This document shows positions 65 to 38,892 of a stretch of 39,220 nucleotides of DNA, one piece after another. The position numbers and the translations under genes are program-made. This DNA is from a virus, in the IMG/VR virus record IMGVR_UViG_3300025276_000071, positions 1-39,220 of that record, one strand, 5' to 3'. How positions within the stretch are numbered: the first letter of the stretch is position 1; each line of letters opens with the position of its first letter. The notes below the pieces were generated by a model. The model made no database searches, was not told where the DNA came from, and was given only the letters and a program-made list of their open reading frames with translations.

Positions 65-96
65 TTTACCACATTAGGTTGTAAAGGCGTTATAAT
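65..96 (+). promoter_or_regulatory. Putative late-operon promoter with operator-like site
   Basis: A perfect -10 hexamer TATAAT lies at 91-96. No good -35 is visible at 16-18 bp spacing; the region is ACCACA at 68-73, and TTTACC at 65-70 is too far away at 20 bp. The 15-mer ACCACATTAGGTTGT at 68-82 overlaps the -35 area. It closely resembles the 15-bp palindromic sites found at other promoters in this genome, especially the one at 36568-36582. The inference is repressor control of the structural operon and perhaps a need for an activator. Confidence 0.5.
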
Positions 97-130
97 GCGC
101 GTCATTCAATGTTCAACGGAGGCTGGTCAC

Positions 131-511
131 TTGGCAAAGCAAAAGGTTATCGATTACGAAAAGCTCTACAACCTAGCAAAGATAGGGTTGAGCGAGGAGC
201 AGATCGCCACATCACTTGGGATATCTGTCTCGACTATCTCTCGACGCAAACGTGACGATGAGCAGTTTGACCGTACCTTAAAGGCTGGCAAGCAGGCGGG
301 CATCGATGCGGTGACCAACGCCCTGTTCGAAGGCGCAACGGGTGAGAAGCCCAACACATCAGCGCAGATCTTCTTCCTTAAGAACCGCGCAGGCTGGCGT
401 GATAGGCAGGAGGTGGACGCTAACCTCACAGGTTCAGTCGTTGTCGATGTGGATGTGGAGTCGGCCATCCAGCAGCTTAAGGCTGCGGGTATTGACCCTG
501 ATAAGTTATGA
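131..511 (+). CDS. terS: Terminase small subunit (putative)
   Basis: Small terminase subunits bind packaging sites on phage DNA and hand them to the large subunit. Residues about 15-45 form a helix-turn-helix, with the segment EEQIATSLGISVSTISRRK. This is followed by the SAQIFFLKNRAGWRD segment that is typical of phage small terminases. I chose the TTG at 131 because GGAGG at 118-122 sits 8 bases upstream. The in-frame ATG at 95 lies inside the TATAAT box and has no good ribosome site. Position just ahead of terL fits. The stop overlaps a mini-ORF start (ATGA). Assignment rests on HTH plus context. Confidence 0.75.
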   Translation: MAKQKVIDYEKLYNLAKIGLSEEQIATSLGISVSTISRRKRDDEQFDRTLKAGKQAGIDAVTNALFEGATGEKPNTSAQIFFLKNRAGWRDRQEVDANLTGSVVVDVDVESAIQQLKAAGIDPDKL

Positions 512-543
512 GTGGCCCATACCTAATGGCCTTACAAACCTAA
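508..543 (+). other. 11-codon coupling mini-ORF (putative)
   Basis: An ATG at 508 overlaps the terS stop (ATGA), runs 11 codons and ends in TAA at 541-543, which overlaps the next ATG at 543 (TAATG). This may be a translational relay rather than a functional peptide. The evidence is only the two exact stop/start overlaps. Confidence 0.25.
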
Positions 544-707
544 TGAAATCAATGACTTACAGGTGTGATGGGGGTGAAATGGTACGAATTGATCACTTTT
601 TAACCTGTGAGGGGCTTGATTTTGAACCCGATTCGCAAAATCGAGGTACCTGTCTGGGGCCATACGCCCCCACATATCTGAGTACACATAGGGCGACTTT
701 ATTTTGA
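543..707 (+). CDS. Small hypothetical protein linking terS and terL
   Basis: This is a 54-residue frame with two Cys in its first half and a third later, no membrane segment and no recognised domain. It starts at the ATG in a TAATG overlap with the preceding mini-ORF. Internal ATGs at 552 and 579 are alternatives; the latter follows a G-rich ribosome-site-like stretch. Its TGA at 705-707 overlaps the TTG start of terL (TTGA). That overlap would explain why terL uses TTG, and it is the main reason to believe the gene. Without it, this stretch would be an ordinary 190-base spacer. Confidence 0.35.
   Translation: MKSMTYRCDGGEMVRIDHFLTCEGLDFEPDSQNRGTCLGPYAPTYLSTHRATLF
656..670. other. GGGGC/GCCCC hairpin upstream of terL
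   Basis: GGGGC at 656-660 can pair with GCCCC at 666-670 around the loop CATAC. No U-run follows directly, so it is unlikely to be an intrinsic terminator. It could shape translation of terL, whose start is 34 bases downstream. Confidence 0.3.
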
Positions 708-2194
708 CAGAGAAGACTTCAAAAAAAGCGGCTTCAAAAAAGAAAGTACCTGCTCTGACAGCGGCTCAGAAAAAAAAGGCGGCGGAATTAGCAGAGGCCA
801 TGCGTTTGGTAAAAGCGCACAAGGCGCAGAACCGGCTGAAATATTGGCAGCCTTACGGTTGGCAGGAAAAATTCTACAAAGCCGGAAAGGTTAACAAGCA
901 AAGAATGCTGATGGCCGCAAACCGCGTAGGCAAAACTGCTTCGCAGGCCGCTGAGGTTGCGTTCCACTTAACAGGCTTATACCCAGATTGGTGGGAGGGT
1001 GTCCGGTTCAACAGGCCCACCAAGATTTGGTGCTTAGGTGTTTCGGGTGAGCAGTTAAGGGATGTAATCGTTAAAGAACTGATGGGCATGTATATAGGGG
1101 ATGGAAAGTTCGATGGTTCTGGCCTAATACCTCAAAAGCTCATCTTCCAAGTAACCCCCGCAATGGGCACACCAAGATTGCCACGGGATGTGGCGGTGCG
1201 CCATGCGGCGGGTAACACCAGCTCGGTGTCGTTTAAAAGTTATACGCAGGGACAGCACGTCCTGATGGGTAGTTCACAGGACTACATCTGGATTGACGAA
1301 GAGCCAACCGACCCGACCATATACCCCCAATGTTTAACAAGGACGGCGACGGGGAACGATGGTCAGGGTGGATATCTCGTCGGAACTCTAACCCCAGAGA
1401 ACGGGATGACGGAACTAGTGTCCCAGTTCATGGATCACCCGAACAAAGGTCAATATCTACAGAACGTCACGTGGGCTGACGCGCCGCATATAACTGAAGA
1501 AACGAAAGAGCAGTTGCTGGCGGCTATCCCTGAATATCAACGCGATATGCGGAGTAAAGGTATTCCGGTGTTGGGTGAGGGTATGGTCTTTCCAATAGCT
1601 GAAGAGGTTGTTAAATGTGATCCGTTTGAGATACCAGCCCACTACAAAAAACTATGTGCTGTGGATTTCGGGATAACGCACCCCACCACCTGTGTCTGGA
1701 CAGCTTACGATCCTGACAGCGATGTCATATATGTGTACGACGTGTACAAGAAAGAGGGTGAGATCCCTGCGATTCATGCAACGGTTATCAAGAGCCGTGG
1801 GAAGGATATCCCGTGCATATACCCACACGATGGGGATAACACCGAGAAGGGCAGCGGCAGAACACTAGCGGAGATGTACATCGAAGCGGGCGTGTTGATG
1901 ATCGGAAAGTTCACCAACCCCGACGGTACGAATTTTGTCGAGCCAGCCTTGATGGAGATGTTGGAGCGATATAGAACTGGGCGGTTGCGAGTGTTCAGCA
2001 ATCTGGTTCCGTGGTTTGAGGAGTTTAGGCGGTATCACCGCAAGAAGGGCAAGATCCACAAAGAGTTTGACGATTTGATGGATGCAACAAGATACGCAGC
2101 GATCAGTGTGACGCGCTTCGGTCAGAACAAAGTTGAGCGTGAGCAATTAACCAACGGACAATCAAGGTATACCACAAATGAATATAACTTCTGA
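704..2194 (+). CDS. terL: Terminase large subunit
   Basis: This is the packaging motor ATPase and nuclease that fills the prohead through the portal. A Lys-rich N-terminus (about residues 1-30) precedes the ATPase domain. Walker A is AANRVGKT (71-78) and Walker B is YIWIDEE (194-200). A RNase H-like nuclease follows with acidic residues D321 (AVDFG), D375/D377 (HDGD) and D457/D460 (DDLMDATRY). The 496-residue length is normal. The TTG at 704 is the only plausible start before an upstream in-frame TAG, apart from a Met at codon 33. TTG is supported by its overlap with the preceding stop. The C-terminal 17 bases overlap the portal gene. Confidence 0.93.
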   Translation: MTEKTSKKAASKKKVPALTAAQKKKAAELAEAMRLVKAHKAQNRLKYWQPYGWQEKFYKAGKVNKQRMLMAANRVGKTASQAAEVAFHLTGLYPDWWEGVRFNRPTKIWCLGVSGEQLRDVIVKELMGMYIGDGKFDGSGLIPQKLIFQVTPAMGTPRLPRDVAVRHAAGNTSSVSFKSYTQGQHVLMGSSQDYIWIDEEPTDPTIYPQCLTRTATGNDGQGGYLVGTLTPENGMTELVSQFMDHPNKGQYLQNVTWADAPHITEETKEQLLAAIPEYQRDMRSKGIPVLGEGMVFPIAEEVVKCDPFEIPAHYKKLCAVDFGITHPTTCVWTAYDPDSDVIYVYDVYKKEGEIPAIHATVIKSRGKDIPCIYPHDGDNTEKGSGRTLAEMYIEAGVLMIGKFTNPDGTNFVEPALMEMLERYRTGRLRVFSNLVPWFEEFRRYHRKKGKIHKEFDDLMDATRYAAISVTRFGQNKVEREQLTNGQSRYTTNEYNF

Positions 2195-4271
2195 GATTAA
2201 CGAGGGTGAACTACTCGCCTCATTAGAGAGCAACATCAACGCTTCCGATTCATACGCTGAAAGCGAGATCGGTATTCAGCGTGAGAAAGGTTATAAATAT
2301 TACTACGGCCAACCGATGGGTAACGAACGCGCTGGTAGATCACAACACGTCAGCATGGATGTGTTTGATGCGGTTGAGTCTGTAAAGGCTATGCTGATGG
2401 AGACGTTCAGTGCTGATAGAAATATCTGCCGTTTTGATCCTCAAACCGCAGAGGATTTTGTGCCTGCGAAGATGGCGACTGCGTTAGCTAACTATATCTT
2501 CTACCGCGAGAACAAAGGAACCAAGATCCTGCACGACGTTATCCACGACGCACTGGTAGCGAAGACGGGTATCGTGAAGCGTTACTACAAGGACTATTAC
2601 GAGTACGACGAGGAAACCTTTGAGGGTGTTGATGAAGCGAGTTTCAACCAGATAGCGTCTGACCCATCTGTCACCATCACAGAATACGCGGAAGACGCGC
2701 AGATGACACAGGTGCAAGATCCGCAGACAGGACAGATGGTCGAGATGTCTCAGATCATGTACAGCGGTGAGCTTGTTCGAAAGATAGACAAGAGCAAAAT
2801 CTGCATCGAGGTCATACCGCCCGAAGATTTTTTAATAACACCACGCGCCACTGACGAAGAGGATGCAGATTTTTGTTCGCACCGCACAAGCAGAACGCGA
2901 GGCGAGTTATTAAGTGAGGGTTACGATCCTGAGATAGTTGCTAAGTTGGATGAGGATAAAGGCCAACACGAAGATGGTGGTTTAGGCCGTGACTCTGTTG
3001 ACGGTTATGGTCACAACGACATGAGCGACTCTGACCACGATCGTGAGCATGTAACGATCTATGAGTCATATCTGAAGAAGTTCCGTGATGACTTGCAGAA
3101 GTGTGTAGTGCTAAAGGTGCTTCACAGCCGCACAGTCGTATTGGATATCGAGATCGTTAGCGAGAAACCTTTCCGATACTTCACACCGTTCCCATTACCT
3201 CACAGGTTCCACGGTATGAGCCTTGCGGATGTCTTGTTAGATATCCAGAAAACTCAAAGCAGCCTGAAGCGTGGCGTGGTTGATCACACGTTTATGACCA
3301 ACACCTCACGATATGTAGCTAACCTATCGTTAGTTAAGAACCCCCGCGACCTGTTGGATAACAGGGTTGGCGCGATTATCGATGTTAACTCCCCGAACCC
3401 TGAGAATGTGGTTCGTCCGCTGCCGATGCCTAATTTGTCAGGCACTGTGTTCCAAGCGATTGAGAACCTTGAAACTGAGAAGGAAGCGCGTAGTGGTATG
3501 AGCCGTATGGCCCGTGGCATGGACAGTACCGTGGTTAGCAAACAGAACAGTTCTGACCTGATAACTCAGTTTATGAACGCCAGTAACCGCAGAATCATGG
3601 TCATGGCACGTAACCTTGCTGAAAACTTCTTAAAACCGTTGATGCACGATATTTACAGGTTAGCGGTAGAGAACGAGAAGCAGGAAAAGCTGCTTCAGTT
3701 GGATGGTCAGTTTGTACCTGTTAATCCTCAGTTCTTAGGTGATCGCACAGAGATGTCCGTAGCTGTGGCGCTGACACCTGAAGAGCAGGCACAAGAAGCA
3801 CAGATATTGTTGAGCCTAGATCAGCAGTTCACTATGAACCCACAGGATCCCAACCTCGGCGGTATGTACAGCGCGCCACAGCGTCACGCGATGCTCAGCC
3901 GTGCGTTTGATTTATTAAACATAAAGAACGGCGCTTCTTTCTTGTTTGATCCCAACAGCCCTCAGTACCAACAGCAGCAGCAAACGATGCAGGCACAACA
4001 GCAGGAAGCTCAAGCGAAAGCCGCAGAGGTTGAGAAGTTCAACGCCGGTATGACCGCAAGACAGGTCGCTGTGCTTGAAGGCCAGTTGGAACTCGATGTT
4101 ATGAAGGAGCAGAACAAGATGTTGGTTGAGATGGAGAAAATGCAACACGACCAAGAAGAGAAAGAAAGCCGCTTGTTGATGGATGTTGAGAAGCAGAACC
4201 ACGACATTGAAATGGACGATAAAGAGCTTGTGGTCGAGAAAGAACAGAAACGTAACGTGTCGATAGGGTGA
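2178..4271 (+). CDS. Portal protein
   Basis: This 697-residue protein is the dodecameric vertex ring through which DNA enters and leaves the capsid. It is of the large podovirus portal type. Residues 1-60 resemble the usual start of such portals, with a conserved segment near GRSQHVSMDVFDAVESVKAML. The mid-region carries PEDFLITPRA and PFPLPHRFHGMSLAD, typical of this family. The last 110 residues are Gln/Glu/Lys-rich and probably form a coiled coil, with a poly-Gln tract near residue 600. It overlaps terL by 17 bases and sits directly before the scaffold and capsid genes. Confidence 0.88.
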   Translation: MNITSEINEGELLASLESNINASDSYAESEIGIQREKGYKYYYGQPMGNERAGRSQHVSMDVFDAVESVKAMLMETFSADRNICRFDPQTAEDFVPAKMATALANYIFYRENKGTKILHDVIHDALVAKTGIVKRYYKDYYEYDEETFEGVDEASFNQIASDPSVTITEYAEDAQMTQVQDPQTGQMVEMSQIMYSGELVRKIDKSKICIEVIPPEDFLITPRATDEEDADFCSHRTSRTRGELLSEGYDPEIVAKLDEDKGQHEDGGLGRDSVDGYGHNDMSDSDHDREHVTIYESYLKKFRDDLQKCVVLKVLHSRTVVLDIEIVSEKPFRYFTPFPLPHRFHGMSLADVLLDIQKTQSSLKRGVVDHTFMTNTSRYVANLSLVKNPRDLLDNRVGAIIDVNSPNPENVVRPLPMPNLSGTVFQAIENLETEKEARSGMSRMARGMDSTVVSKQNSSDLITQFMNASNRRIMVMARNLAENFLKPLMHDIYRLAVENEKQEKLLQLDGQFVPVNPQFLGDRTEMSVAVALTPEEQAQEAQILLSLDQQFTMNPQDPNLGGMYSAPQRHAMLSRAFDLLNIKNGASFLFDPNSPQYQQQQQTMQAQQQEAQAKAAEVEKFNAGMTARQVAVLEGQLELDVMKEQNKMLVEMEKMQHDQEEKESRLLMDVEKQNHDIEMDDKELVVEKEQKRNVSIG

Positions 4272-4274
4272 TAT

Positions 4275-4472
4275 ATGGCAGACGATAAAGCGATTGAGAC
4301 GTTCATTCAGAAAGCGAACGAGAAGAAGTTCGGCGGTAAGAAGAAGTCGATGAAACAAGTTCTCAGTGATTATAGAAAGTGGAAAGACGGAAAGTTAGAT
4401 AGAGAAACCACGTTACCGAAACGCCCTACAAAGGGCCGAATGGCTAACGCGAAAATTAAACCAACCACATAG
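4275..4472 (+). CDS. Small basic hypothetical protein
   Basis: This is a 65-residue, Lys-rich soluble protein with no recognised domain. It starts 3 bases after the portal stop and lies between portal and scaffold genes. Small proteins at this position in podoviruses are often minor virion or assembly factors; that is an inference from position only. Confidence 0.7.
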   Translation: MADDKAIETFIQKANEKKFGGKKKSMKQVLSDYRKWKDGKLDRETTLPKRPTKGRMANAKIKPTT

Positions 4473-4483
4473 TGGAGTTTTAG

Positions 4484-4738
4484 ATGACTGATCAAGATTT
4501 AGGTGAGATGGCGACCACAGCGGCAGCCGCCAGTGAGATGTTAAACAGTGCAGTGTTCAACAAGGCGTTTGAGCATATGAACCGTGGAATTATCGAGCAA
4601 ATATTAGCAACCCCACCGGAAGCTGATGTTGAGAGGGAGCGCCTGTACTCGATGTTTAAAGCGGGGCAGATGTTCGTTCAGCAGTTTGCTGGATTAATAA
4701 ACAACTATGAATTGGCGACACAAGAAGAAGTTGTGTAA
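4484..4738 (+). CDS. Small hypothetical protein of head module
   Basis: This 84-residue protein is predicted to be largely helical, with an Ala-rich first third and acidic ends. No motif is recognised. It lies 11 bases after the preceding gene and 15 bases before the scaffold gene, so it is surely co-transcribed with the head genes. Related short proteins occur between portal and scaffold genes in other podoviruses as unnamed families, to my knowledge without an assigned function. Confidence 0.7.
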   Translation: MTDQDLGEMATTAAAASEMLNSAVFNKAFEHMNRGIIEQILATPPEADVERERLYSMFKAGQMFVQQFAGLINNYELATQEEVV

Positions 4739-4753
4739 AATAGGAGAATACCC

Positions 4754-5722
4754 ATGTCAGACGAGCAAACCATAGTACCGGACTCAACTGAAGTAGGTGA
4801 TGCAGATATTATCGCTAGACTTACGGCTGTATTGGAATCCGATCAGGACAACCCCGAAACACCTGAAGAAGAGCAAGAGGTGGTTGAAGAAATCACCGAT
4901 GAAGTGATCGAAGAGTCGCAGGACGTTGAAGAAGAGGCTGAAGAATCTGAGGAGGTCGAAGACCCAACCGAGGAGACTGAGGAAGAAACGGAAGACGAAC
5001 CTGATGCTATAACCGAGGGTATGATCGAGGTTGATGGTGAAAAGCTATCAGTCGATGAGATCAAACTCGGCTACATGAGACAGGCCGATTACACTAAGAA
5101 GACGCAGGCTGTCAGCGAACAGCGTAAGGCCGCAGAAGAACAAACTGCCAATTACGAATCCACATTGAATGCACTTCTTACTGCCTCCGGTGCAGACCTG
5201 TCACGTTTTAACGACGTGAATTGGGAGCAAGCGGCGGTAGAAAACCCCGATCAATATAGACAAGCCAAAGCTGTTTACGAGCAAACAAAGCAGACGCACG
5301 ATTTTATTCGCGCACAAGCTGATGAGCATAAACAGCGATCTCAAGCACAGCAACAGGCGACGTTGAAAGAACGCGCAAAAGAAAGCCTGACTGTCTTGAA
5401 ATCTACAATCCCTAATTGGAATAACGATCTCTATTACTCTATTGCTGAGTATGCGTCGGGTTCGTTAGGTGTCAATGCCGATGAGTTCAACGAGGTACAT
5501 GACCACCGAGTAATTACGGCGCTGTATAAGGCTATGCAATTTGATAGGGCAAAAACGGAGACGAAAAAGAAGGTTAAAACGACTCCGAAAAAAACTTTGT
5601 CGGGTAAGAAATCAGAACCCAAAGATTTAGGTAAAAAAGACAACTACCGCAAAGCGCGTGAACGTCTAAAGAAATCTGGATCGATGGATGATGCCGTTCA
5701 AGCCCTCTTGAATAGAACATAA
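4754..5722 (+). CDS. Capsid scaffolding protein (putative)
   Basis: This 322-residue protein would shape the prohead internally and leave before packaging. Residues about 15-85 are extremely acidic (Glu-rich runs), the centre is Gln/Ala-rich helical and the last 70 residues are Lys-rich. Such an acidic helix with a basic capsid-binding tail is the usual design of phage scaffolds. It is placed immediately before the major capsid gene and has a clear ribosome site (AGGAG). Assignment is by composition and position, not by a catalytic motif. No protease signature is seen. Confidence 0.78.
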   Translation: MSDEQTIVPDSTEVGDADIIARLTAVLESDQDNPETPEEEQEVVEEITDEVIEESQDVEEEAEESEEVEDPTEETEEETEDEPDAITEGMIEVDGEKLSVDEIKLGYMRQADYTKKTQAVSEQRKAAEEQTANYESTLNALLTASGADLSRFNDVNWEQAAVENPDQYRQAKAVYEQTKQTHDFIRAQADEHKQRSQAQQQATLKERAKESLTVLKSTIPNWNNDLYYSIAEYASGSLGVNADEFNEVHDHRVITALYKAMQFDRAKTETKKKVKTTPKKTLSGKKSEPKDLGKKDNYRKARERLKKSGSMDDAVQALLNRT

Positions 5723-5737
5723 CTTTAGGAATTTATT

Positions 5738-6637: not shown

Positions 6638-6646
6638 CAGCGTTAA
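6627..6646 (+). other. TTAACGC/GCGTTAA inverted repeat at capsid stop
   Basis: TTAACGC (6627-6633) pairs with GCGTTAA (6640-6646) around a 6-base loop that includes the capsid stop codon. It lies 4 bases before a stronger hairpin. It may stabilise the 3' end of capsid mRNA, but could be incidental. Confidence 0.35.
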
Positions 6647-6650
6647 AGCA

Positions 6651-6685: not shown

Positions 6686-6697
6686 CCGAGGGTTCCC

Positions 6698-12395: not shown

Positions 12396-12424
12396 TTGGG
12401 TTAATATACAACTTGAGGTAGAAT
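12396..12424 (+). promoter_or_regulatory. Putative promoter and operator for PD-(D/E)XK gene
   Basis: TTGGGT (12396-12401) and TAGAAT (12419-12424) are 17 bp apart. The 15-mer ACAACTTGAGGTAGA (12408-12422) covers the -10 and differs from the right-arm operator pattern ACAACY-N3-GGTTGA by one base in the right half. TTGCAC (12381) with TAATAT (12402) is a less well spaced alternative. This would give the nuclease gene separate, repressor-linked control inside the late operon. Confidence 0.5.
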
Positions 12425-12445
12425 GTACACCCATGAGGTGTGTGC

Positions 12446-12838
12446 ATGGACAATGCTCAAATTGGTCAGGCTGGTGAATACCTAGCCGCAGCCGTGCTAC
12501 AACGCGAATTCCCCGCGATAGCTTTTCCCGATAGACCTTCCGCTTACGATCTACTCATAGAAACCGAAGTAAACACGTTCCTTCGTTGTCAGGTGAAAAC
12601 CAGTGATGTGATCAATTCTGTGAATGGCTGCGATTACTGGAAATTTAACATTCGAAGGACTGCCGGTAATTATAAATCGGGAGATTGCGATTTCTTTGCC
12701 TTTGTTGTGCTTCGCGCCAGAACAGTCGTCTTTGCTAAATCAGATGACGTGACAACGTCTTTCAGGGTAAGGCTAGATGATGCGACCTTTGAGAACGAGG
12801 AGCGCACCCTGAAACAAACATTAGGTGAGTGGTTGTGA
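12446..12838 (+). CDS. PD-(D/E)XK-type nuclease-like protein
   Basis: This 130-residue protein matches the small endonuclease fold used by many phage and intron-encoded nucleases. GQAGEYLAAAVL (about 7-18) fits the first helix, with E11 as a possible ligand. AYDLLIE gives D35, and CQVKTS gives Q49 and K51. Q at this place instead of E is common in this subgroup, with the form D-x13-QxK. The ATG at 12446 is used because GAGGT ends 6 bases upstream; a GTG at 12440 is weaker. It sits between tail and lysis genes, an unusual spot for a replication nuclease, and seems to have its own promoter. Host exclusion, degradation or DNA processing are all possible. Confidence 0.65.
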   Translation: MDNAQIGQAGEYLAAAVLQREFPAIAFPDRPSAYDLLIETEVNTFLRCQVKTSDVINSVNGCDYWKFNIRRTAGNYKSGDCDFFAFVVLRARTVVFAKSDDVTTSFRVRLDDATFENEERTLKQTLGEWL

Positions 12839-25310: not shown

Positions 25311-26342
25311 GTGGGGTCTATACAGCAGCGTGGAAGTTCATGGAGAGCGATTGTTAGAAAGGAGGGTGTGAGTGTTACTAAAACTTTCCCGAAGAAAAAA
25401 CTAGCCAGTTCTTGGATCAGAACAACGGAAGAAGGAATCGTTACTGGTAAATATAGACATCTTGATGACACAAACTTTGGCGTGTTATGTAAGCGTGTCC
25501 TGCTTGATATGGTTGAGATAAAAAGAGCAACTAAACAAAGACCTTTGGGGGAGTCTACGGTCAGAACCATTGAGGCTGTGCGGAAGTCACTTGGCGATTA
25601 CAGCTTGGATCAACTAACAAAACAGGTTCTGACCGATTACGGAGTCGGTAGAGGTGTGAAACCTTCAACGGTAGCTCGTGACTTCTCGCATATATCAGTA
25701 GTGCTAGACCATGCCCAGATTCGATTCGATGCAGAACCACTGCTCGGAGAATTTCAACTCGCAAGAAAAACATTGAAAAAACTAGGTGTTATCTCTGAGT
25801 CTGATCAACGGGATCGTAGAGCAACTGATGAAGAGATTGATTTGATCGACGCGCATAAGGGGAGGACATCGTACAACTTGGGTTTGCTTGCTCGTTTTTC
25901 TGTTCTTACCGCTATGCGGGCGGGTGAGCAGATGGGGGTTAAAGGTATTATGTGGTCAGACCTGCACGACAACGGACAGACCGTTTTAATTCGTCAAAGA
26001 AAACACCCGAAGAAAGCGCGAGATGAACTTGTACCTTTGTTGCCAGAGGCGCAGGACATCATCGAAGTAATGCGGATGTTCACAGGTAAGAACAAACAGA
26101 TATTTCCGTTCAGCCCAAACTCAGTAAGTAATCAATGGAGAAAGTCTAGGAACCGTGCGGCAGTGATCGATCTGCGTTGGCACGATCTGAGGCATGAGGG
26201 TGTTAGCCGCCTGTTTGAGCGCGGCTTCGATATTATGGCGGTGTCGAGGTTCTCAGGTCATAAAGATTTAAACACACTGAAGCGATACACCCATGTTAAT
26301 CCGCTCCAGATTTTAGAGTCTAAAGGTTATTTAAAGACTTGA
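25311..26342 (+). CDS. int: Tyrosine recombinase integrase
   Basis: This 343-residue site-specific recombinase would integrate and excise the phage. The N-terminus, GSIQQRGSSWRAIVRKEGV with TKTFPKKKLASSWI, is the arm-binding domain. A core-binding helical domain covers about 55-150. The catalytic domain has R203 (TAMRAGE), a Lys in the RKHPKK region (about 231-235), H291 and R294 (HDLRH), H317 (SGHKD) and nucleophile Y326 (RYTHV). I chose the GTG at 25311, with GGAG 9 bases upstream, because it gives the usual short start before GSIQQRGSSW. A TTG at 25266 would translate through the TGTACCA repeats. It converges with and overlaps DUF3310 by 16 bases. Confidence 0.9.
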   Translation: MGSIQQRGSSWRAIVRKEGVSVTKTFPKKKLASSWIRTTEEGIVTGKYRHLDDTNFGVLCKRVLLDMVEIKRATKQRPLGESTVRTIEAVRKSLGDYSLDQLTKQVLTDYGVGRGVKPSTVARDFSHISVVLDHAQIRFDAEPLLGEFQLARKTLKKLGVISESDQRDRRATDEEIDLIDAHKGRTSYNLGLLARFSVLTAMRAGEQMGVKGIMWSDLHDNGQTVLIRQRKHPKKARDELVPLLPEAQDIIEVMRMFTGKNKQIFPFSPNSVSNQWRKSRNRAAVIDLRWHDLRHEGVSRLFERGFDIMAVSRFSGHKDLNTLKRYTHVNPLQILESKGYLKT

Positions 26343-26620
26343 GTCTCAACTAACTTCCCTAAATACCACGCGGCTTTGCGGAGATCCTCAACCTGCTTGG
26401 TTTTGGATTCGCTTTTATATCTCCACCTGTGAAGATATTTTTTAATATTCCCTTCAAGATAATACTCATAGCCATCGCCGAGATTGTCCTTTAAATAATC
26501 AATGCACTCAATGCTGCCACTGTTGTAGTGGGCGGGGTGGCTTACATCGTCACCGCCCGTCGGCTTTATCGGTTCGGTTGTGGTTTGTGATCTATGCCAT
26601 TGGTTGTTATTTGATTTCAT
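26327..26620 (-). CDS. DUF3310 family protein
   Basis: This 97-residue protein has the DUF3310 hallmark HPAHYNSGSIECIDYLKDNLG, then YLEGNIKKYLHRWRYK and DLRKAAWYLGKL. Members are widespread in phages near replication genes. Some are annotated as nucleotide-kinase-like, but to my knowledge no function is settled. It is the last gene of the leftward operon and its 3' end overlaps the integrase 3' end on the opposite strand. Confidence 0.82.
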   Translation of the reverse strand: MKSNNNQWHRSQTTTEPIKPTGGDDVSHPAHYNSGSIECIDYLKDNLGDGYEYYLEGNIKKYLHRWRYKSESKTKQVEDLRKAAWYLGKLVETQVFK

Positions 26621-26631: not shown

Positions 26632-26838
26632 TCAGTTTTTAGTTGTAAATTTATTGAAGCCTTCAAGTCTTTTCTGTTCAAAGTAGTAACTGACAACTTG
26701 TTTATCAGCCACTCTAAACTTACCGAGTTTGTAGGTTGGAATGGGAAATGTTTCATTATGCAAAGCATTGTGTAAGCCTTTGGTACTCATACTCATAAGC
26801 TCCGCTAACTCAACCATTGTGTAATATGGTTTTTCCAT
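26632..26838 (-). CDS. AlpA/excisionase-like DNA-binding protein
   Basis: This 68-residue protein has a winged-helix-like pattern of the MerR/AlpA type. YYTMVELAELMSMSTKGLHNAL gives a turn-helix, then FPIPTYKLGKFRVADKQVVSYY gives the wing and recognition region. Such proteins act as excisionases or small activators. Its place beside the integrase region and directly after the repressor favours an excisionase or directionality factor. The start overlaps the repressor stop (TAATG), so it is translationally coupled to the repressor, which is odd for an induction-only function. Confidence 0.65.
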   Translation of the reverse strand: MEKPYYTMVELAELMSMSTKGLHNALHNETFPIPTYKLGKFRVADKQVVSYYFEQKRLEGFNKFTTKN

Positions 26839-27542
26839 TATTCGACCCCATCCAAGAATAAAGGTATTTTTTTATTTCCAACCTTCCAGCTTTGGGCGCT
26901 TTTGTTGTATTGTATTTTCAACTTCCAGCTTGCTCCGCTGCGATTACCATGTTGTTTCAGAATGTCGGGTGTGATCCACACAAAGTCATACATCAACGAA
27001 CAGTCAAGCTCGGGGTGTTCATCTTTTAATTCAGGCCATCTGTGAAGAGGCAATGCCCCTATAAGGCTTACGCTGTGGTCTGGCATCGGTACTGTAATGT
27101 TGCCGCATGTACTATTCTCATGTTCAAACACACTTACAGCTAAATTTCTCTGCACACCATGACCTATGGCATGGATATCGGCTCTATCTGCTACGTCATC
27201 GACGAACGCGACGTTGTAATTCCTCCCAATCATGAACGAGATGAGCGCGTGTACAGCCCCGCTATGGTTTGAGTTGATTTTTTTCAAATTAGAGAACTCA
27301 AGCTCAGAAGTGCCAAGTGCTAACCAAACATATTCAACATCTAATAATTTCGATAAACGAATTATCATAGGTTGGCGTGGTTGTGTGTCTCCTGATAACC
27401 ATTTTCGTACCGCCTCCTGACTAACTTTCATTTGTTTAGCTAGTTCGGTTTGTAAGCCTTTCCCGTAATCTGGAATGTCGGGGTGTTCTGCGCATGCCAG
27501 TTGTAATCTCTCAGAAAATGTAGTCACTTTTGAATTTACCAT
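26838..27542 (-). CDS. CI-like XRE-family repressor without S24 domain
   Basis: This is a 234-residue protein with an N-terminal XRE helix-turn-helix: GLQTELAKQMKVSQEAVRKWLSG (about 29-51), then QPRQPMIIRLSKLLDVEYVWLALG, as in lambdoid repressors. The C-terminal 150 residues show no Ala-Gly/Ser/Lys self-cleavage pattern of LexA/S24 repressors and are not recognised. Induction by simple RecA-aided autocleavage is therefore doubtful. It is encoded at the distal end of the replication operon but has its own promoter. A copy of the dispersed 15-bp site covers its start codon, suggesting autoregulation. Confidence 0.8.
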   Translation of the reverse strand: MVNSKVTTFSERLQLACAEHPDIPDYGKGLQTELAKQMKVSQEAVRKWLSGDTQPRQPMIIRLSKLLDVEYVWLALGTSELEFSNLKKINSNHSGAVHALISFMIGRNYNVAFVDDVADRADIHAIGHGVQRNLAVSVFEHENSTCGNITVPMPDHSVSLIGALPLHRWPELKDEHPELDCSLMYDFVWITPDILKQHGNRSGASWKLKIQYNKSAQSWKVGNKKIPLFLDGVE

Positions 27543-27552
27543 TTTTAGTTGT
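27538..27552 (-). promoter_or_regulatory. Operator-like site over repressor start codon
   Basis: The + strand 15-mer ACCATTTTTAGTTGT has the perfect right half AGTTGT and a left half similar to those at 68-82 and 36568-36582 (ACCA start). It spans the repressor start and lies where the transcript would begin. Negative autoregulation is inferred. Confidence 0.45.
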
Positions 27553-27588: not shown

Positions 27589-28923
27589 GGACTCAACAAC
27601 ATCAAGTAGTAAATCTTGTGTGTCTGTTTTGCACATCAATGCCGACAGCACGTTTTGGTCTGCGGTGTTGTCAGCCAATATATGCAGCACCCGTACAGGT
27701 TTGGTTTGACCCTGCCGGTGAAGTCTCGCGTTAAATTGTTGATAGAGTTCTAAGCTCCATGACAATCCATACCAAACAATGAGACTGCCGCCTTTTTGAA
27801 GATTCAACCCATGCCCTGCCGATGCGGGGTGTGCTAGAAGGATAGGTATTTGACCATCGTTCCATTTGTCCAGAATAGTGTTATCTTTTTCTATGACAAC
27901 AGCCTGTGGAAATTCCCTTTTCAATATTTCTAAATCTGATTTAAAACTATACGCGATGAGAAGCGGCTCATTAGTTGATTCTACAATTTCTCGTAGTGCG
28001 TCAAGTTTTGCGCTGTGGATCTTAATGAAGTCGCGTTCTTCAGTATATAGGTTCCCGTTAGCGATCTGGCAAAGCTTGTTCACTTGCACAGCCGCGTTTA
28101 CAGCAAGGATATCGCCACCATCATAGGCAACTAAAAAATCTCGCTTCATGTCGTCGTAAACTTTTCGCGCTTTAGGTGGTAGAACCACGGGGATGTTTAT
28201 ATCTACGCGCTTCGGAAGGTCGATATAATCATCAGCCTTCATTCGCAGAACAACATCGCTAACAGCTTTGTGAATAGCGTCAGCGCGGTCGGGTTTAACT
28301 ACCCACTGGTTCCATTGTGGGTTGCCGACCAACGTGCAGTATTTTGTCAGGAATTTTCCACGGCTGTTTTCTAATCGCTCACCCCTATCAAGCAAGAACA
28401 TCTGAGGCCATAGTTCCAACAATGCGTTCGGCGCTGGTGTGCCTGTGAGTTGAACCATACGAGAAACTTTACCCAGCACCTTACGCATCGACTTCCATCG
28501 CTTGGAGGTGTGAGCCTTGAATGAACTACTCTCATCAATCACCACGCAATCATAGGGCCAGCGATGATGACCGAAATGTTCAACCAACCACGGTATGTTC
28601 TCTCGATTTATTATGTGCAGGTCGGTGTCTTCATCTAGCGCAGCTAACCTCTTAGATTTTGACTTTCCGGCTATGACTGTGTGACTCAGGGTTATGTGCG
28701 TCCAGTTAGCTATCTCTGCGGGCCATGTATGGGTGGCTACTCTTAGTGGGGCGACGATTAACGTCTTGGTTATTTTCTTATCTTGTTTTAGATCTGTCAG
28801 GGCTGTGAGTGTTGATATGGTTTTACCTAAACCCATGTCGATCCACAGTGCCGCTTTAGGGTTTTCTATAACGAAATCAACAGCGCGTTGTTGGTATCCG
28901 TGCAGGTTCTCTCTGGTCAGCAT
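27571..28923 (-). CDS. SNF2-type SF2 helicase
   Basis: This 450-residue DNA-dependent ATPase is of the phage replication type. Motif Q/I is GYQQRAVDFV then MGLGKT (30-35). Motif II is DESS (130-133), motif III LTGTPAPN (159-166) and motif VI QQFNARLHRQGQTKPV near residue 400. The order VRR-NUC then SNF2 helicase recurs in many phage replication modules with DUF2800, DUF2815 and polymerase A. The start overlaps the VRR-NUC end. It probably remodels or unwinds DNA during replication or recombination. Confidence 0.9.
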   Translation of the reverse strand: MLTRENLHGYQQRAVDFVIENPKAALWIDMGLGKTISTLTALTDLKQDKKITKTLIVAPLRVATHTWPAEIANWTHITLSHTVIAGKSKSKRLAALDEDTDLHIINRENIPWLVEHFGHHRWPYDCVVIDESSSFKAHTSKRWKSMRKVLGKVSRMVQLTGTPAPNALLELWPQMFLLDRGERLENSRGKFLTKYCTLVGNPQWNQWVVKPDRADAIHKAVSDVVLRMKADDYIDLPKRVDINIPVVLPPKARKVYDDMKRDFLVAYDGGDILAVNAAVQVNKLCQIANGNLYTEERDFIKIHSAKLDALREIVESTNEPLLIAYSFKSDLEILKREFPQAVVIEKDNTILDKWNDGQIPILLAHPASAGHGLNLQKGGSLIVWYGLSWSLELYQQFNARLHRQGQTKPVRVLHILADNTADQNVLSALMCKTDTQDLLLDVVESLRKPK

Positions 28924-31353: not shown

Positions 31354-31366
31354 GTTGCACCTCTCG

Positions 31367-31394: not shown

Positions 31395-31404
31395 ATTAAT
31401 TAAC

Positions 31405-33098: not shown

Positions 33099-33147
33099 CA
33101 CTTTATTCCTCTTTAAACATTTTTTATCTAACGATTTCACTCTGTGG

Positions 33148-33176
33148 TTGACACCATAGTGATTCATCCCTACAGT
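33148..33176 (+). promoter_or_regulatory. Rightward early promoter
   Basis: TTGACA (33148-33153) lies 17 bp from TACAGT (33171-33176). The -35 is perfect and the -10 is four of six. It would drive the Cro-like regulator at 33216 and the primase gene. Its -10 overlaps the -35 of the opposing promoter, so the two cannot easily be occupied together. Confidence 0.65.
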
Positions 33177-33181
33177 GTCAA
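33153..33181 (-). promoter_or_regulatory. Leftward replication-operon promoter
   Basis: On the minus strand TTGACA (33181-33176) and TATGGT (33158-33153) are 17 bp apart. It faces the rightward promoter and shares bases with it. The two -35 boxes are parts of a 9-bp inverted repeat (GGTTGACAC at 33146 and GTGTCAACC at 33175). The predicted transcript start near 33146 fits the DUF2800 start at 33098. Confidence 0.65.
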
Positions 33182-33192
33182 CCGAAAGTTGT
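33178..33192. promoter_or_regulatory. Operator at the divergent control region
   Basis: TCAACCGAAAGTTGT matches the WCAACY-N3-RGTTGW pattern in full and overlaps the leftward -35 and the predicted rightward start site. A degenerate copy, TCACTCTGTGGTTGA at 33138-33152, overlaps the rightward -35. The pair would let one repressor shut both promoters. Confidence 0.65.
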
Positions 33193-33215
33193 AAATAACA
33201 TCCAAAGAGGTATAT

Positions 33216-33497
33216 ATGAATTATGTGAGTGAGTACGCCGATGAGGTGAAAGCGGCGATTGATGATGTCGTTTCGTTTACCGGAATTAAGAACTGCAACG
33301 CACTAGCAAGACGGCTGGGGGTGTCTAAGCAAGCGTTATCTAAATGGCGACAGACGGGCATCGTTCCAGCCCATAGAGCGATGCAGATGGAATTGATGAC
33401 CGATGGCAGCGTGTCGTGGAGGGATTTATGCCCCGATATCGTGGTTGATTTTGATAACAGTAGTGACGTGATCTACGAAACCAGCAGGCAAGGCTAA
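33216..33497 (+). CDS. Cro/YdaS-like HTH regulator
   Basis: This 93-residue DNA-binding protein has a helix-turn-helix at about 27-47 (NALARRLGVSKQALSKWRQTG), then IVPAHRAMQMELMTDGSVSWRDLCPDI, the pattern of YdaS/Cro-type regulators that recognise phage operators. It is the first gene rightward from the control region, as Cro is in lambda-like phages, and has an AAGAGG ribosome site. It could compete with the repressor for the 15-bp sites. Confidence 0.82.
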   Translation: MNYVSEYADEVKAAIDDVVSFTGIKNCNALARRLGVSKQALSKWRQTGIVPAHRAMQMELMTDGSVSWRDLCPDIVVDFDNSSDVIYETSRQG

Positions 33498-33528
33498 ACA
33501 CACAAAATGTAAAGTGACGGGGTAACGC

Positions 33529-35799: not shown

Positions 35800-35801
35800 T
35801 T

Positions 35802-36044
35802 ATGGGGAAGGGTAGCAAGCAAAGGCCAACAGCGGCTACATTTTACGATAACTGGGACACAATATTCGGAGATAAGAAGACTATGAAATATGAATGCGGA
35901 AAGTGCGGCGACATCGACGTTACCGAGGTACACGAAGAGGTGAGTGTAGACTATGAGCCTATGGGCGACACCGTAGTGCCGAGGCGTGAGGTCTATTTGT
36001 CTTGTGAGCATTGTGGGGGTGATGTTGAGGACATCGTTTATTAA
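35802..36044 (+). CDS. Zinc-ribbon-like small protein
   Basis: This 80-residue protein begins MGKGSKQRP, a start common to many small phage proteins. It contains two Cys pairs, CGKCG (about 32-36) and CEHCGG (about 69-74), 35 residues apart, fitting a zinc ribbon. I chose the ATG at 35802; an in-frame TTG at 35787 would overlap the primase gene and lacks a ribosome site. The cofactor and partner are unknown. Confidence 0.75.
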   Translation: MGKGSKQRPTAATFYDNWDTIFGDKKTMKYECGKCGDIDVTEVHEEVSVDYEPMGDTVVPRREVYLSCEHCGGDVEDIVY

Positions 36045-36055
36045 CCCCAACTTTC

Positions 36056-36076
36056 GCCCCTAATGGGGCTTTTTTT
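36056..36076 (+). terminator. Rightward early terminator
   Basis: GCCCC (36056-36060) and GGGGC (36065-36069) form a stem with loop TAAT, then seven T's. It ends the Cro-like to zinc-ribbon transcript. Confidence 0.9.
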
Positions 36077-36083
36077 GGCCCAT

Positions 36084-36105
36084 AAAAAAGCCGCCCGAAG
36101 GCGGC
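36084..36105 (-). terminator. Leftward terminator for the 36128-36543 genes
   Basis: On the minus strand GCCGCC-TTCG-GGCGGC is followed by six T's (36089-36084). It faces the rightward terminator at 36056 and ends the two-gene leftward unit. Confidence 0.9.
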
Positions 36106-36127
36106 AAGGTAGCGAGGAGTTTTATTA

Positions 36128-36403
36128 TTATTCGTCTTCTTGTTCTATGATCCACTGACTCATCGCAAAGTCATTCTTCATCGCCTCGATTGCACCCAAC
36201 AGCGCGAACTCCGGCATCGTTGAGTGCCACGCATCAACAACCACGCCAGCCGCGTTAATCCCCACAGCGGCAAAACCTTTTATGTTGTGAGCCTCTGCCG
36301 CTGCTGTGAAATCCTCAATGGTGGCTAACAGGTCAGGGTCAATAACCTCTGGTTCTGGCTGCGTACCCTCTATAGCTGTGAGCTTTACGATTTTATCGGT
36401 CAT
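36128..36403 (-). CDS. Hypothetical acidic protein
   Basis: This is a 91-residue protein with Asp/Glu-rich ends and an Ala-rich alpha/beta-like centre (TIEDFTAAAEAHNIKGFAAVGINAAGVVVDAWH). No family is recognised. Its start overlaps the upstream stop (ATGA), so it is coupled to the small membrane protein gene. It is followed by a terminator. Confidence 0.72.
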   Translation of the reverse strand: MTDKIVKLTAIEGTQPEPEVIDPDLLATIEDFTAAAEAHNIKGFAAVGINAAGVVVDAWHSTMPEFALLGAIEAMKNDFAMSQWIIEQEDE

Positions 36404-36543
36404 AGAATCTTATCTATCCAATCTTCAACGCTTAGTATCATCACAACACAGGCGACAATTAAAAAACTGTACACGGCGTCAATGATATGAGCCTTTAAGG
36501 TGTTGCGACGAGTTTCGGGAAGATCTTTAATTTCGTTGTTCAT
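36400..36543 (-). CDS. Small single-pass membrane protein
   Basis: This 47-residue protein has a charged N-terminus (MNNEIKDLPETRRN), one transmembrane span about 24-39 (VYSFLIVACVVMILSV) and an acidic end. I chose the ATG at 36543 with GAGG 7 bases upstream; a longer reading from 36606 crosses the operator region. It is possibly involved in superinfection exclusion or envelope effects, but that is a guess from size and topology. Confidence 0.7.
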   Translation of the reverse strand: MNNEIKDLPETRRNTLKAHIIDAVYSFLIVACVVMILSVEDWIDKIL

Positions 36544-36567
36544 TTTTAACCTCTTAATATTGATGAT

Positions 36568-36582
36568 ACCACAAATGGTTGT
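36568..36582. promoter_or_regulatory. Operator-like site before the leftward small genes
   Basis: ACCACAAATGGTTGT has a perfect right half and the same ACCACA left half as the site at 68-82. On the minus strand a weak promoter could be TTCAGG (36592-36587) and TATCAT (36568-36563), 18 bp apart, which the site would block. Confidence 0.5.
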
Positions 36583-36619
36583 ATGTCCTGAATAAGCGTA
36601 GACCATATAAATTATAAAT

Positions 36620-36659
36620 ACAACCTATGGTTGACGAATCAATTATAAGTTGATATAAT
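36620..36659 (+). promoter_or_regulatory. Promoter with two operator sites (cassette 1)
   Basis: TTGACG (36631-36636) and TATAAT (36654-36659) are 17 bp apart, a near-consensus promoter. Site one, ACAACCTATGGTTGA (36620-36634), overlaps the -35. Site two, TCAATTATAAGTTGA (36639-36653), fills the spacer and abuts the -10. Site centres are 19 bp apart. A repressor bound here would block RNA polymerase. Confidence 0.85.
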
Positions 36660-36692
36660 TCTCCTGAATTAAACAAGTGAGAGGAAAAAACG

Positions 36693-36890
36693 ATGAGCAG
36701 ATTGAATCCAATAGTAGCTGAAGAGAACCGAGTCGCATTTCAAGATGATTTAAAGAAAGCGGCACATAAAAAGGCTCTAACAAAATGGCTGCGTGATAAC
36801 CCAGAGATTGGAGAGTTGAACGGCGGTAAATACTACAAAATGGTCGATAGTGAGGTGGTATACCTCGAAGCACTGAGTGAAGCATCGTAA
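36693..36890 (+). CDS. Small hypothetical protein, accessory cassette 1
   Basis: This 65-residue protein is helical and basic in the middle (DDLKKAAHKKALTKWLRD), ending with YYKMVDSEVVYLEALSE. No family is recognised. It has a strong ribosome site (GAGAGG, 8 bases upstream). The leader up to the start codon is identical to that of the gene at 37355, although the proteins are unrelated. Confidence 0.75.
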   Translation: MSRLNPIVAEENRVAFQDDLKKAAHKKALTKWLRDNPEIGELNGGKYYKMVDSEVVYLEALSEAS

Positions 36891-36898
36891 AACTAACC

Positions 36899-36912
36899 GC
36901 CCCTTCGGGGGC
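36899..36912 (+). other. UUCG hairpin between cassette 1 genes
   Basis: GCCCC-TTCG-GGGGC makes a stable stem with a UUCG tetraloop, followed by CAACCTTTGAGG rather than a clean T-run. The same hairpin and flank occur at 37569-37582. It is likely an attenuator or mRNA-stability element rather than a full terminator. Confidence 0.6.
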
Positions 36913-36933
36913 CAACCTTTGAGGAGAGGTGAT

Positions 36934-37209
36934 ATGAAGAATGAAGTGTTTTACGAGTACGGGTGTGAGTACGTTATGCAGAACGGCGTTTCAGATATCG
37001 ACGATGTGGACTTCAGCACGAGGGCATCAGATATCTGGCCCGCACAGTGGGACTACCCCGATTGCGAACCACGCCTAGTGGCTCGTCGTATGTGGGGTAA
37101 TGATCTACAGGGCGTGTTAGAGGTGGGCTATGCGTACAAAGGCGACACCCACTTCGATACAGGACACAAAGTGCCGGCGCACATGTTCAGGATGCTGAAC
37201 CGCTGTTGA
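36934..37209 (+). CDS. Hypothetical protein, accessory cassette 1
   Basis: This 91-residue protein is rich in Asp, Tyr and Trp (VSDIDDVDFSTRASDIWPAQWDYPDCEP), acidic overall, with no recognised family. It starts at the ATG at 36934 behind GAGGAGAGG. The acidic small-protein character could suit a DNA mimic or inhibitor, but that is speculative. An 8-bp inverted repeat surrounds its stop region. Confidence 0.7.
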   Translation: MKNEVFYEYGCEYVMQNGVSDIDDVDFSTRASDIWPAQWDYPDCEPRLVARRMWGNDLQGVLEVGYAYKGDTHFDTGHKVPAHMFRMLNRC

Positions 37210-37233
37210 CTCTACCCTACTGATCGTCAACAG
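37203..37233. other. CTGTTGAC/GTCAACAG inverted repeat
   Basis: CTGTTGAC (37203-37210) and GTCAACAG (37226-37233) form an 8-bp inverted repeat with a 15-base gap, overlapping the preceding stop. Both arms contain the GTTGA core of the operator, but the spacing does not match the usual 15-bp site. Confidence 0.4.
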
Positions 37234-37241
37234 ATATGTTT

Positions 37242-37269
37242 ACTACTCAATCACCTTCGGGTAGTTTTT
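37242..37269 (+). terminator. Weak terminator before cassette 2
   Basis: ACTAC (37242-37246) can pair with GTAGT (37261-37265), followed by further T's (TTTTTA). The stem is only 5 bp with a 14-base loop, so efficiency is uncertain. It separates cassette 1 from the next promoter. Confidence 0.4.
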
Positions 37270-37281
37270 ACGCTTAAAGAT

Positions 37282-37321
37282 ACAACTAATGGTTGACTAT
37301 ACAGTTATAGGTTGATATAAT
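37282..37321 (+). promoter_or_regulatory. Promoter with two operator sites (cassette 2)
   Basis: TTGACT (37293-37298) and TATAAT (37316-37321) are 17 bp apart. Site one, ACAACTAATGGTTGA (37282-37296), overlaps the -35. Site two, ACAGTTATAGGTTGA (37301-37315), lies between -35 and -10. Centre spacing is again 19 bp, identical to cassette 1. Confidence 0.85.
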
Positions 37322-37354
37322 TCTCCTGAATTAAACAAGTGAGAGGAAAAAACG

Positions 37355-37558
37355 ATGAACATGAAAGAAGCACAAAACGCCGTAGCTAACTTGATCAATC
37401 CAGAGAATGCCAGTGTTTACGCTGCACAAGAAGACAAAATGATTTGGGTTGAAAACAACATAATGCAGCCATCTGGTATTGATGCATCTGGTAACACCGG
37501 TTTCGGTGAGAGATTGTGCAACTGGATAGAAGATCAGCTTGACGAGATGCGTAAGTAA
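37355..37558 (+). CDS. Small hypothetical protein, accessory cassette 2
   Basis: This 67-residue acidic protein begins MNMKEAQNAVANLINPENASVY and ends with CNWIEDQLDEMRK. No family is recognised. The ribosome site and leader are shared base for base with the gene at 36693. The protein is not similar to the one there. Confidence 0.75.
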   Translation: MNMKEAQNAVANLINPENASVYAAQEDKMIWVENNIMQPSGIDASGNTGFGERLCNWIEDQLDEMRK

Positions 37559-37568
37559 AACACTAACC

Positions 37569-37582
37569 GCCCCTTCGGGGGC
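37569..37582 (+). other. UUCG hairpin between cassette 2 genes
   Basis: This GCCCC-TTCG-GGGGC hairpin lies in the same context as the one at 36899 (CTAACC before it, AACCTTTGAGG after it). It is placed between the first and second gene of the cassette. Confidence 0.6.
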
Positions 37583-37603
37583 TAACCTTTGAGGGGAAGT
37601 ACC

Positions 37604-38185
37604 ATGATTAACACTACATACTACAATGTTGACCAGAAAGTTTTTAACTCACCAGAAGGTCTTGGTGTTTGGGGCTGGAGAGCTGGAGCCAATCATCTTG
37701 CAACACCAAGCCGTGAGCAAGCTGAGGAGTTGAAAGAGAAGCAGATGGCAAGCTTTCTTCGCTATGTAGCTCGTGAGCAAGAACGGGTGGGTGAGGATGA
37801 CGCTGAAGTTAATGATCATCTGACCAACCTGCTGTGGAAGTCAGATTGGCGTATAACCTCTGAGGTTAAGAACTACACCCACGCTAGTGAGTTCGGATAT
37901 TCTGACGTTCACGCTTATGAGATCGTGAAGGTGATCAGCGACAAGACCCTTGAAGTACGCCGTATGGACGCTGAGTTCGACATCGGTCACCTAAATCAGG
38001 TTGTTGGCGGTTTCTCAGGACACGTCGAGAACCAGCGCGGTCAGAAGGTGACATACGCATCTAACCCTGATGCAGCAGTCATCCGTATCCGTCGCAGCAG
38101 GAAAGACCACGACCTCTGGGTGTCGAACGGTCGTCAGTTTCTGCTCCAGACCGAGCCTTACGCCTTCCACGACTACAACTTTTAA
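37604..38185 (+). CDS. Hypothetical protein, accessory cassette 2
   Basis: This 193-residue protein begins MINTTYYNVDQKVFNSPEGLG. The middle is charged and helical (SREQAEELKEKQMASFLRY). The second half looks beta-rich, with SDVHAYEIVKVISDKTLEVRRM, then HLNQVVGGFSGHVENQRGQ and VIRIRRSRKDHDLWVS. I have a sense of similar unnamed proteins in phages and plasmids but cannot name a family. I chose the ATG at 37604 behind GAGGGG. It ends at a terminator. Confidence 0.72.
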   Translation: MINTTYYNVDQKVFNSPEGLGVWGWRAGANHLATPSREQAEELKEKQMASFLRYVAREQERVGEDDAEVNDHLTNLLWKSDWRITSEVKNYTHASEFGYSDVHAYEIVKVISDKTLEVRRMDAEFDIGHLNQVVGGFSGHVENQRGQKVTYASNPDAAVIRIRRSRKDHDLWVSNGRQFLLQTEPYAFHDYNF

Positions 38186-38204
38186 TCGACTGGTCTACTC
38201 AACT

Positions 38205-38229
38205 AGCCGCCCTTTCGGGGGCTTCTTTT
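38205..38229 (+). terminator. Terminator after cassette 2
   Basis: AGCCGCCC (38205-38212) pairs with GGGGGCT (38217-38223) with one bulged G and loop TTTC, followed by TTCTTTT. It ends cassette 2 just before the third promoter. Confidence 0.7.
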
Positions 38230-38239
38230 GAGTACAGAT

Positions 38240-38279
38240 ACAACCTTAAGTTGACTATACTCGGGTAAGTTGATAGAAT
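38240..38279 (+). promoter_or_regulatory. Promoter with operator sites (cassette 3)
   Basis: TTGACT (38251-38256) and TAGAAT (38274-38279) are 17 bp apart. Site one, ACAACCTTAAGTTGA (38240-38254), is a good palindrome over the -35. Site two, ACTCGGGTAAGTTGA (38259-38273), keeps only the right half. Spacing equals that of cassettes 1 and 2. Confidence 0.8.
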
Positions 38280-38307
38280 GATCCTGAAATCAATGAGGAG
38301 AAGTGTA

Positions 38308-38874
38308 ATGAGCCATATCAATAACCCCGTAGCCTATGAAGCCGCTGTTAAAGCGAAGATCATTCACAACGCCAACAAAACTTGGTTGCGTAACATCCCC
38401 CGCGCTCAGGAGATTGAGCGTTGGGTTATCTGCAACATGTATAAGAACGACTTCGCCGCTAGTCTGGACATCGCGCTTAACAAATGGGGCAAGCTGTCTG
38501 AGAAGCAGTGTGCCGCTGTGGTGAAGTGCATCGACGGCTTTGATGCTCGTAAGGCTGAGTGGGATGCTGCGCGTGAGGCCGAACACGCCGCTGCCGACCC
38601 CATCGGTGAAGGTCGTCAGGTTGTCACCGGTGAGGTGTTGAGCCTGAAGCTTGTCAGCAGCATGTACGGTGACACTACCAAGATGGTAGTTCGGGACGAC
38701 AGAGGCTTTAAAGTGTACGGCACTGTACCTCAGAGCCTTTGGGATGAGATCTATGAGACTGACACTGGGCTACAGGGTCAGCGTGTATCGTTCACCGCTA
38801 CAGTCTCTCCATCTCCGGATGACGAGAAGTTCGGGTTCTTTAAACGTCCATCGAAGGCCGCCCTCGCGGCCTAA
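38308..38874 (+). CDS. Hypothetical protein, accessory cassette 3
   Basis: This is a 188-residue protein. Residues 1-100 are helical (ARKAEWDAAREAEHAAAD at about 88-105). About 105-185 look like a small beta-barrel: RQVVTGEVLSLKLVSS, TKMVVRDDRGFKVYGTVP, GQRVSFTATVSPS, then FGFFKRPSKA. The second half could be OB-like and bind nucleic acid, but this is a shape argument only. I chose the ATG at 38308 with GAGGAG upstream. An in-frame ATG at 38278 lies in the promoter -10 and is rejected. Confidence 0.75.
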   Translation: MSHINNPVAYEAAVKAKIIHNANKTWLRNIPRAQEIERWVICNMYKNDFAASLDIALNKWGKLSEKQCAAVVKCIDGFDARKAEWDAAREAEHAAADPIGEGRQVVTGEVLSLKLVSSMYGDTTKMVVRDDRGFKVYGTVPQSLWDEIYETDTGLQGQRVSFTATVSPSPDDEKFGFFKRPSKAALAA

Positions 38875-38877
38875 GAT

Positions 38878-38892
38878 ACAACCGTAAGTCGT
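38878..38892. promoter_or_regulatory. Operator-like site before 38912
   Basis: ACAACCGTAAGTCGT keeps a perfect left half and a right half with one change (AGTCGT). No matching promoter is seen. It may be a decayed cassette boundary. Confidence 0.4.

Follow-up and report, generated by a model that had tools for sequence, protein, structure and literature searches.

Dispersed 15-bp palindromes as probable operators of a CI-like repressor in a virus genome

Introduction

Similar short palindromes are scattered over the virus genome described here, and the question is whether they are operators and, if so, which protein reads them. The window, that is, the whole stretch of DNA analysed, comprises an entire IMG/VR virus record (39,220 bp). 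It carries genes for an integrase, an Xis-like protein, a CI-like protein, polA/helicase, a Cro/YdaS-like protein and a primase. A preliminary description had listed eleven consensus sites with two weaker copies and attributed them to one repressor or its Cro-like rival. The present comparison makes it highly likely that the sites are operators of the CI-like repressor (26838-27542, minus strand).

The sites in the window

The exact consensus, WCAACYNNNRGTTGW, is matched four times in the window (33178, 36620, 37282 and 38240) against 0.08 expected, and the largest count in 100 shuffles of the window was one. When up to two mismatches are allowed, 37 sites are present against 18.5 expected, and thus the weaker sites cannot be judged from the window alone; two-mismatch counting within it was dropped, as the sites were inseparable from chance. 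An unbiased palindrome scan of the window did not bring the motif to the surface. A near-identity DNA search of the window against phages returned zero matches.

A weight matrix was built from 117 sites of related phages only; it is not independent of the earlier motif idea, because it was seeded with the CAAC-N5-GTTG shape. Its top eight sites in the window are, in that order, 38240, 37282, 36620, 33178, 68, 36568, 38878 and 12408. All eight are intergenic by the curated gene list, while intergenic DNA makes up 4.7% of the window (p = 2e-11). The earlier observation is confirmed in part, at its core; of the eleven consensus sites listed before, only four are exact, and among the top eight 68, 36568, 38878 and 12408 carry one or two mismatches. 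At 68 and 36568 the half-site is CCAC, a form that is itself over-represented among relatives (47 vs 19). Among the lower-scoring members of that list, 36639 ranks 10th, and 37301 and 27538 fall, together with a further site at 26632, between 19th and 25th; 27538 is kept for its conserved position, and 37301 is supported solely by its tandem position, 19 bp beyond 37282. The two weaker copies, 33138 (33137) and 38259, drop out: both lie outside the matrix top 34, the latter despite its tandem place after 38240.

The motif in related phages

Relatives were collected through Cro (51 loci) and through CI (searches yielding 71 and 68 loci). The first set comprised 21 non-redundant Cro loci (227 kb), from which contigs near-identical to the window were excluded, and the second comprised 37 further non-redundant CI loci (540 kb). 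WCAAC-N5-GTTGW occurs 48 times in the Cro loci against 1.0 expected, and 70 times in the CI loci against 1.9 expected, where the other spacings from 0 to 20 are far lower. In the Cro set, the next class is the N8 spacing (15 vs 1.4 expected), mostly at cro promoters; in the CI set, it is at most weakly raised (6 vs 2.2). As a separate operator, the N8 class was rejected, since it can be traced to CCAC half-sites and -35 boxes at cro promoters.

The sites recur at conserved addresses, namely the terminase (terS), the nuclease gene at 12440, Xis/DUF3310, helicase-CI, cro/PL and the right arm. Promoter boxes stand at fixed offsets to the operators across relatives (TATAAT 31 vs 4.0, TTGACA 17 vs 3.6). 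It might be argued that the motif merely reflects -35 boxes (GTTGAC) and the AT-richness of promoters. Several sites do have GTTGAC as their -35, and overlapping cro promoters give rise to the N8 class; nevertheless, the fixed N5 spacing and the lineage described below, in which -10 boxes are kept while the palindromes are gone, make this explanation very improbable.

Whole genomes of cultured phages were also scanned, without bias, for every 4-mer palindrome. The register CAAC-N5-GTTG or TCAA-N7-TTGA came first in SS2019XI, AchV4, PS6, YMC16 and RHph_X2_30, that is, in five of the six phages with a close CI. AH2 has three sites only, and its top palindrome is in a different register. The phage BcepNazgul (L199-L201), which is without CI, has another dispersed palindrome, AAGT-N1-ACTT (18 vs 0.5 expected).

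CI or Cro as the reader

What the sequences show by computation is the existence of the sites, a fixed spacing, positions at promoters, conservation and joint occurrence with CI. The six named Casjensviridae with a close CI have 3, 10, 9, 12, 6 and 11 sites, and a reversed-pattern control gave 0. Seven cultured phages without CI have 0, 0, 1, 2, 0, 1 and 0, and four alphaproteobacterial phages with a divergent CI have 0-2. A scan for CI in genome contigs, carried out for host assignment, gave four distant matches only.

The alternative reader is the Cro/YdaS-like protein (33216-33497, plus strand), a lytic regulator with a Pfam HTH match, which could bind the sites by itself or compete for them with CI. 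The HTH domains of the two proteins show a low level of similarity (25% over 53 residues, E 0.046), and the promoter of the Cro-like gene is flanked by sites in most relatives. Three records, G001, G004 and G007, effectively one lineage, bear on the choice. They keep TerL, polA, helicase, Xis-like and Cro at 71-90% identity (TerL 79-90%, helicase 77% and Cro 74% identity to the window), and the Cro helix, SKQALSKW, is identical. However, CI is absent between the helicase and the Xis-like gene, and zero sites are found. At the terminase and nuclease promoters of this lineage, the -10 boxes are retained while half-sites are gone. Cro was on these grounds rejected as the binder, and the suggestion of a Cro-like rival is not borne out. 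The N5 peak is likewise present in the set collected through CI, and the site specificity tracks the CI helix. Thus, a role of Cro in reading the sites is improbable, and it is very probably CI that reads them. The earlier proposal that the single repressor at 26838-27542 reads dispersed operators is strongly supported by this comparison of sequences. In G001 (L057-L058), the integrase is apparently full-length (open frame 27718-28749, 47% identity to that of the window).

The CI-bearing contigs G023, L142, L146 and L075 have zero exact N5 sites despite the helix SQEAVRKW. For G023 (L257-L259), L142 and L146, this absence refers to the sequence examined; L146 has a near-match 20 bp upstream of CI. 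A further point against the operator reading is that in SS2019XI and AchV4 together, 8 of 19 sites lie mostly within annotated genes.

Operators, promoters and the proposed mechanism

At the left end, the operator ACCACATTAGGTTGT (68-82, matrix rank 5) is separated by 8 bp from the downstream TATAAT (91-96) of the terminase (late) promoter; an N5 site is also present at this address in G002, G003, G006, G009 and L027. The operator ACAACTTGAGGTAGA (12408-12422, rank 8) overlaps the -10 TAGAAT (12419-12424) of the gene at 12440-12838 (plus strand), and site and address are common to G002, G012 and G003. At the same address in the CI-less G001, the -10 is kept and the left half-site is lost. The product of this gene is a probable PD-(D/E)XK nuclease (Pfam PDDEXK_5, E 4e-5, with 24.1 bits, below the cut-off of 26.1), and the idea of a nuclease gene under the operator is therefore plausible at that level.

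Around the CI gene, the sites are weaker. An operator-like site at 26632-26646 (rank 25) lies before the DUF3310 gene (26327-26620), an address with sites in many relatives. Another weak operator, at 27538-27552, lies over the CI start codon; L056 and L075 have a site at the equivalent position, with the sequence ACAACACAAAGTGGT, and in many relatives N5 sites precede CI by 10-90 bp. The address after ssb, inside the operon and occupied in several relatives, is empty in the window.

At the early region, PR (plus strand, TTGACA 33148-33153, TACAGT 33171-33176) and PL (minus strand, TTGACA 33176-33181, TATGGT 33153-33158) are back-to-back with near-complete antiparallel overlap (33148-33181), each -10 touching the -35 of the other. 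Only a single polymerase could be bound at any one time. A regular-expression search of 22 regions upstream of cro recovered such an overlapping pair in most of them. The operator TCAACCGAAAGTTGT (33178-33192, rank 4), an exact match at a conserved address, lies over the PL -35.

In the right arm, ACCACAAATGGTTGT (36568-36582, rank 6) lies upstream of a minus-strand gene with a likely start at 36543. It is followed by tandem sites: ACAACCTATGGTTGA (36620-36634, exact, rank 3) lies over a -35 (36631-36636), and the second operator (36639-36653) abuts the -10 TATAAT (36654-36659). Similarly, ACAACTAATGGTTGA (37282-37296, exact, rank 2) lies over a -35 (37293-37298), and a weak second operator (37301-37315), of low matrix score and within repeat D2, abuts the -10 (37316-37321). 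In both pairs, the -35 lies under the first operator, while the second occupies the spacer as far as the -10; tandem spacing of 18-21 bp recurs in relatives. The operator ACAACCTTAAGTTGA (38240-38254, exact, rank 1) lies over a -35 (38251-38256), and ACAACCGTAAGTCGT (38878-38892, rank 7) abuts a -10-like TAAAAT (38893-38898) before the gene at 38912. Coverage of the accessory arm and of both early promoters, as described before, holds. A promoter region is repeated in three right-arm cassettes (36613-38293), between which a terminator-like hairpin, CCGCCCCTTCGGGGGC, recurs.

We infer binding, repression, dimerisation and cooperativity of CI, and the following scheme is proposed. A CI dimer would presumably read both CAAC half-sites (palindrome positions 2-5), which are spaced by roughly one turn of the helix. 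Lying over -35, spacer or -10 elements, it would shut promoters in lysogeny, its targets being the late (terminase), nuclease, overlapping PL/PR and right-arm promoters as well as its own gene, where the site over the start codon (27538) would allow autoregulation. The tandem sites of the right-arm promoters, with a spacing of about 19 bp, suggest two CI dimers side by side. Since the operators cover these promoter elements, a block of polymerase binding is the most likely action.

By analogy with L5, the sites might instead be mainly stoperators, at which bound repressor halts an elongating polymerase within operons. The site just after ssb in several relatives would fit, as would SS2019XI, where sites lie between structural genes. 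Against this stand the eight best sites of the window, which are at promoters or before genes, the fixed promoter offsets across relatives and the symmetry of the sites, which makes orientation with transcription impossible. Stoperator action as the main role is therefore unlikely, and promoter occlusion by CI is preferred, while the sites within relatives' operons leave room for some roadblock action.

The CI protein and known systems

CI has an N-terminal HTH_3 domain (Pfam). In an AF2 model from 42 rows (pLDDT 88.7), this HTH aligns with P22 c2 (Z 10.8) and 434 Cro (Z 9.1). Residues 84-234 have a PD-(D/E)XK fold in the model, matching I-Ssp6803I (Z 11.9, 124 residues aligned) and Hjc (Z 9.6). 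D122 is present in 37 of the 42 rows; a conserved (D/E)-x-K is missing from the next strand, so the catalytic D...(D/E)-x-K signature is not found. The list of Pfam matches for CI contains zero S24 entries, which is an absence from a list, and the C-domain aligns with PD-(D/E)XK structures. Kinship of this domain with the window's own nuclease was considered and rejected, as BLASTP gave no similarity. We infer from the model a degenerate nuclease fold that may serve dimerisation. Were such a retired domain to stand in place of a self-cleaving one, induction would not proceed via RecA-stimulated self-cleavage.

Dispersed operators of a single repressor are known from other phages. In phage P1, 22 C1 operators are dispersed over the genome (PMC8546580); the window resembles it in having one repressor, here the putative CI, with many genome-wide operators and proposed autoregulation, but P1 operators are asymmetric and 17 bp, unlike the 15-bp palindromes of the window. 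In cluster A mycobacteriophages (L5/Bxb1), dispersed repressor sites drift in sequence with the repressor (PMC6550527), as they appear to do here among relatives. The analogy drawn earlier with L5 stoperators stands for the logic of many dispersed sites; it fails in that stoperators are oriented, asymmetric 13-bp sequences that lie mostly away from promoters, whereas those of the window are palindromic and for the most part linked to promoters.

A further likeness is to the Casjensviridae lysogeny module, with its helicase, CI-like and excisionase order and homologous CI (AH2 gp70, AchV4 gp78). The window has the same order, with CI directly downstream of the helicase and upstream of the Xis-like gene. 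Both homologues were published as CI-like only (PMC3483164, PMC7996906), and a word search of the two papers found no description of operators. At least one cultured member, AchV4, showed lytic behaviour under laboratory conditions although it carries a lysogeny module (PMC7996906). From sequence, the pair of site and repressor appears to run through the whole cultured family; a published description was not found, and as literature coverage was partial, its novelty is provisional. An operator map and a likely repressor are thus supplied for Casjensviridae, the cultured members of which have Pseudomonas, Klebsiella, Achromobacter and Burkholderia as hosts, and immunity groups and CI-less derivatives become predictable from sequence.

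Recognition helix and half-site sequence

The HTH fold of CI is close to that of P22 c2, and the half-site ACAA resembles the ACAA of 434. In 434, Gln at helix position 2 contacts the outer A. Unlike the window, with its dispersed 15-bp sites, 434 and P22 have 14-bp sites in two operator clusters, and their LexA-type C-domain was not found in the window's CI by Pfam.

Among 67 phages, Gln at position 2 of the CI helix pairs with outer A (permutation p ~1e-5), the outer base being A or T in 163/114 sites in Gln phages and 9/140 in the others. On the tree, this correlation amounts to about three independent changes, one of them on supported branches; a reading as many independent events was thus rejected, and with so few changes the correlation is support, not proof. 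Within that limit, it suggests that the bases of the half-site change in step with the recognition helix of CI. Taken together with the model of CI, a broader proposal is put forward tentatively, as one that may or may not hold: Casjensviridae and their uncultured relatives would share a family-wide palindromic-operator lysogeny system, in which the half-site code shifts with the helix, the 15-bp geometry stays fixed and a retired PD-(D/E)XK domain dimerises the repressor instead of self-cleavage. Such phages form a natural series for testing the joint change of repressor and operator.

In RcCWillis, one of the four alphaproteobacterial phages above, which has a divergent CI with the helix TAETVRKW, the unbiased scan found 15 TCAC-N7-GTGA sites, the geometry being unchanged. 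Many of these 15 sites (L185-L188) have the form TCACRTNNNAYGTGA, and one of the 15 precedes the CI gene by about 70 bp.
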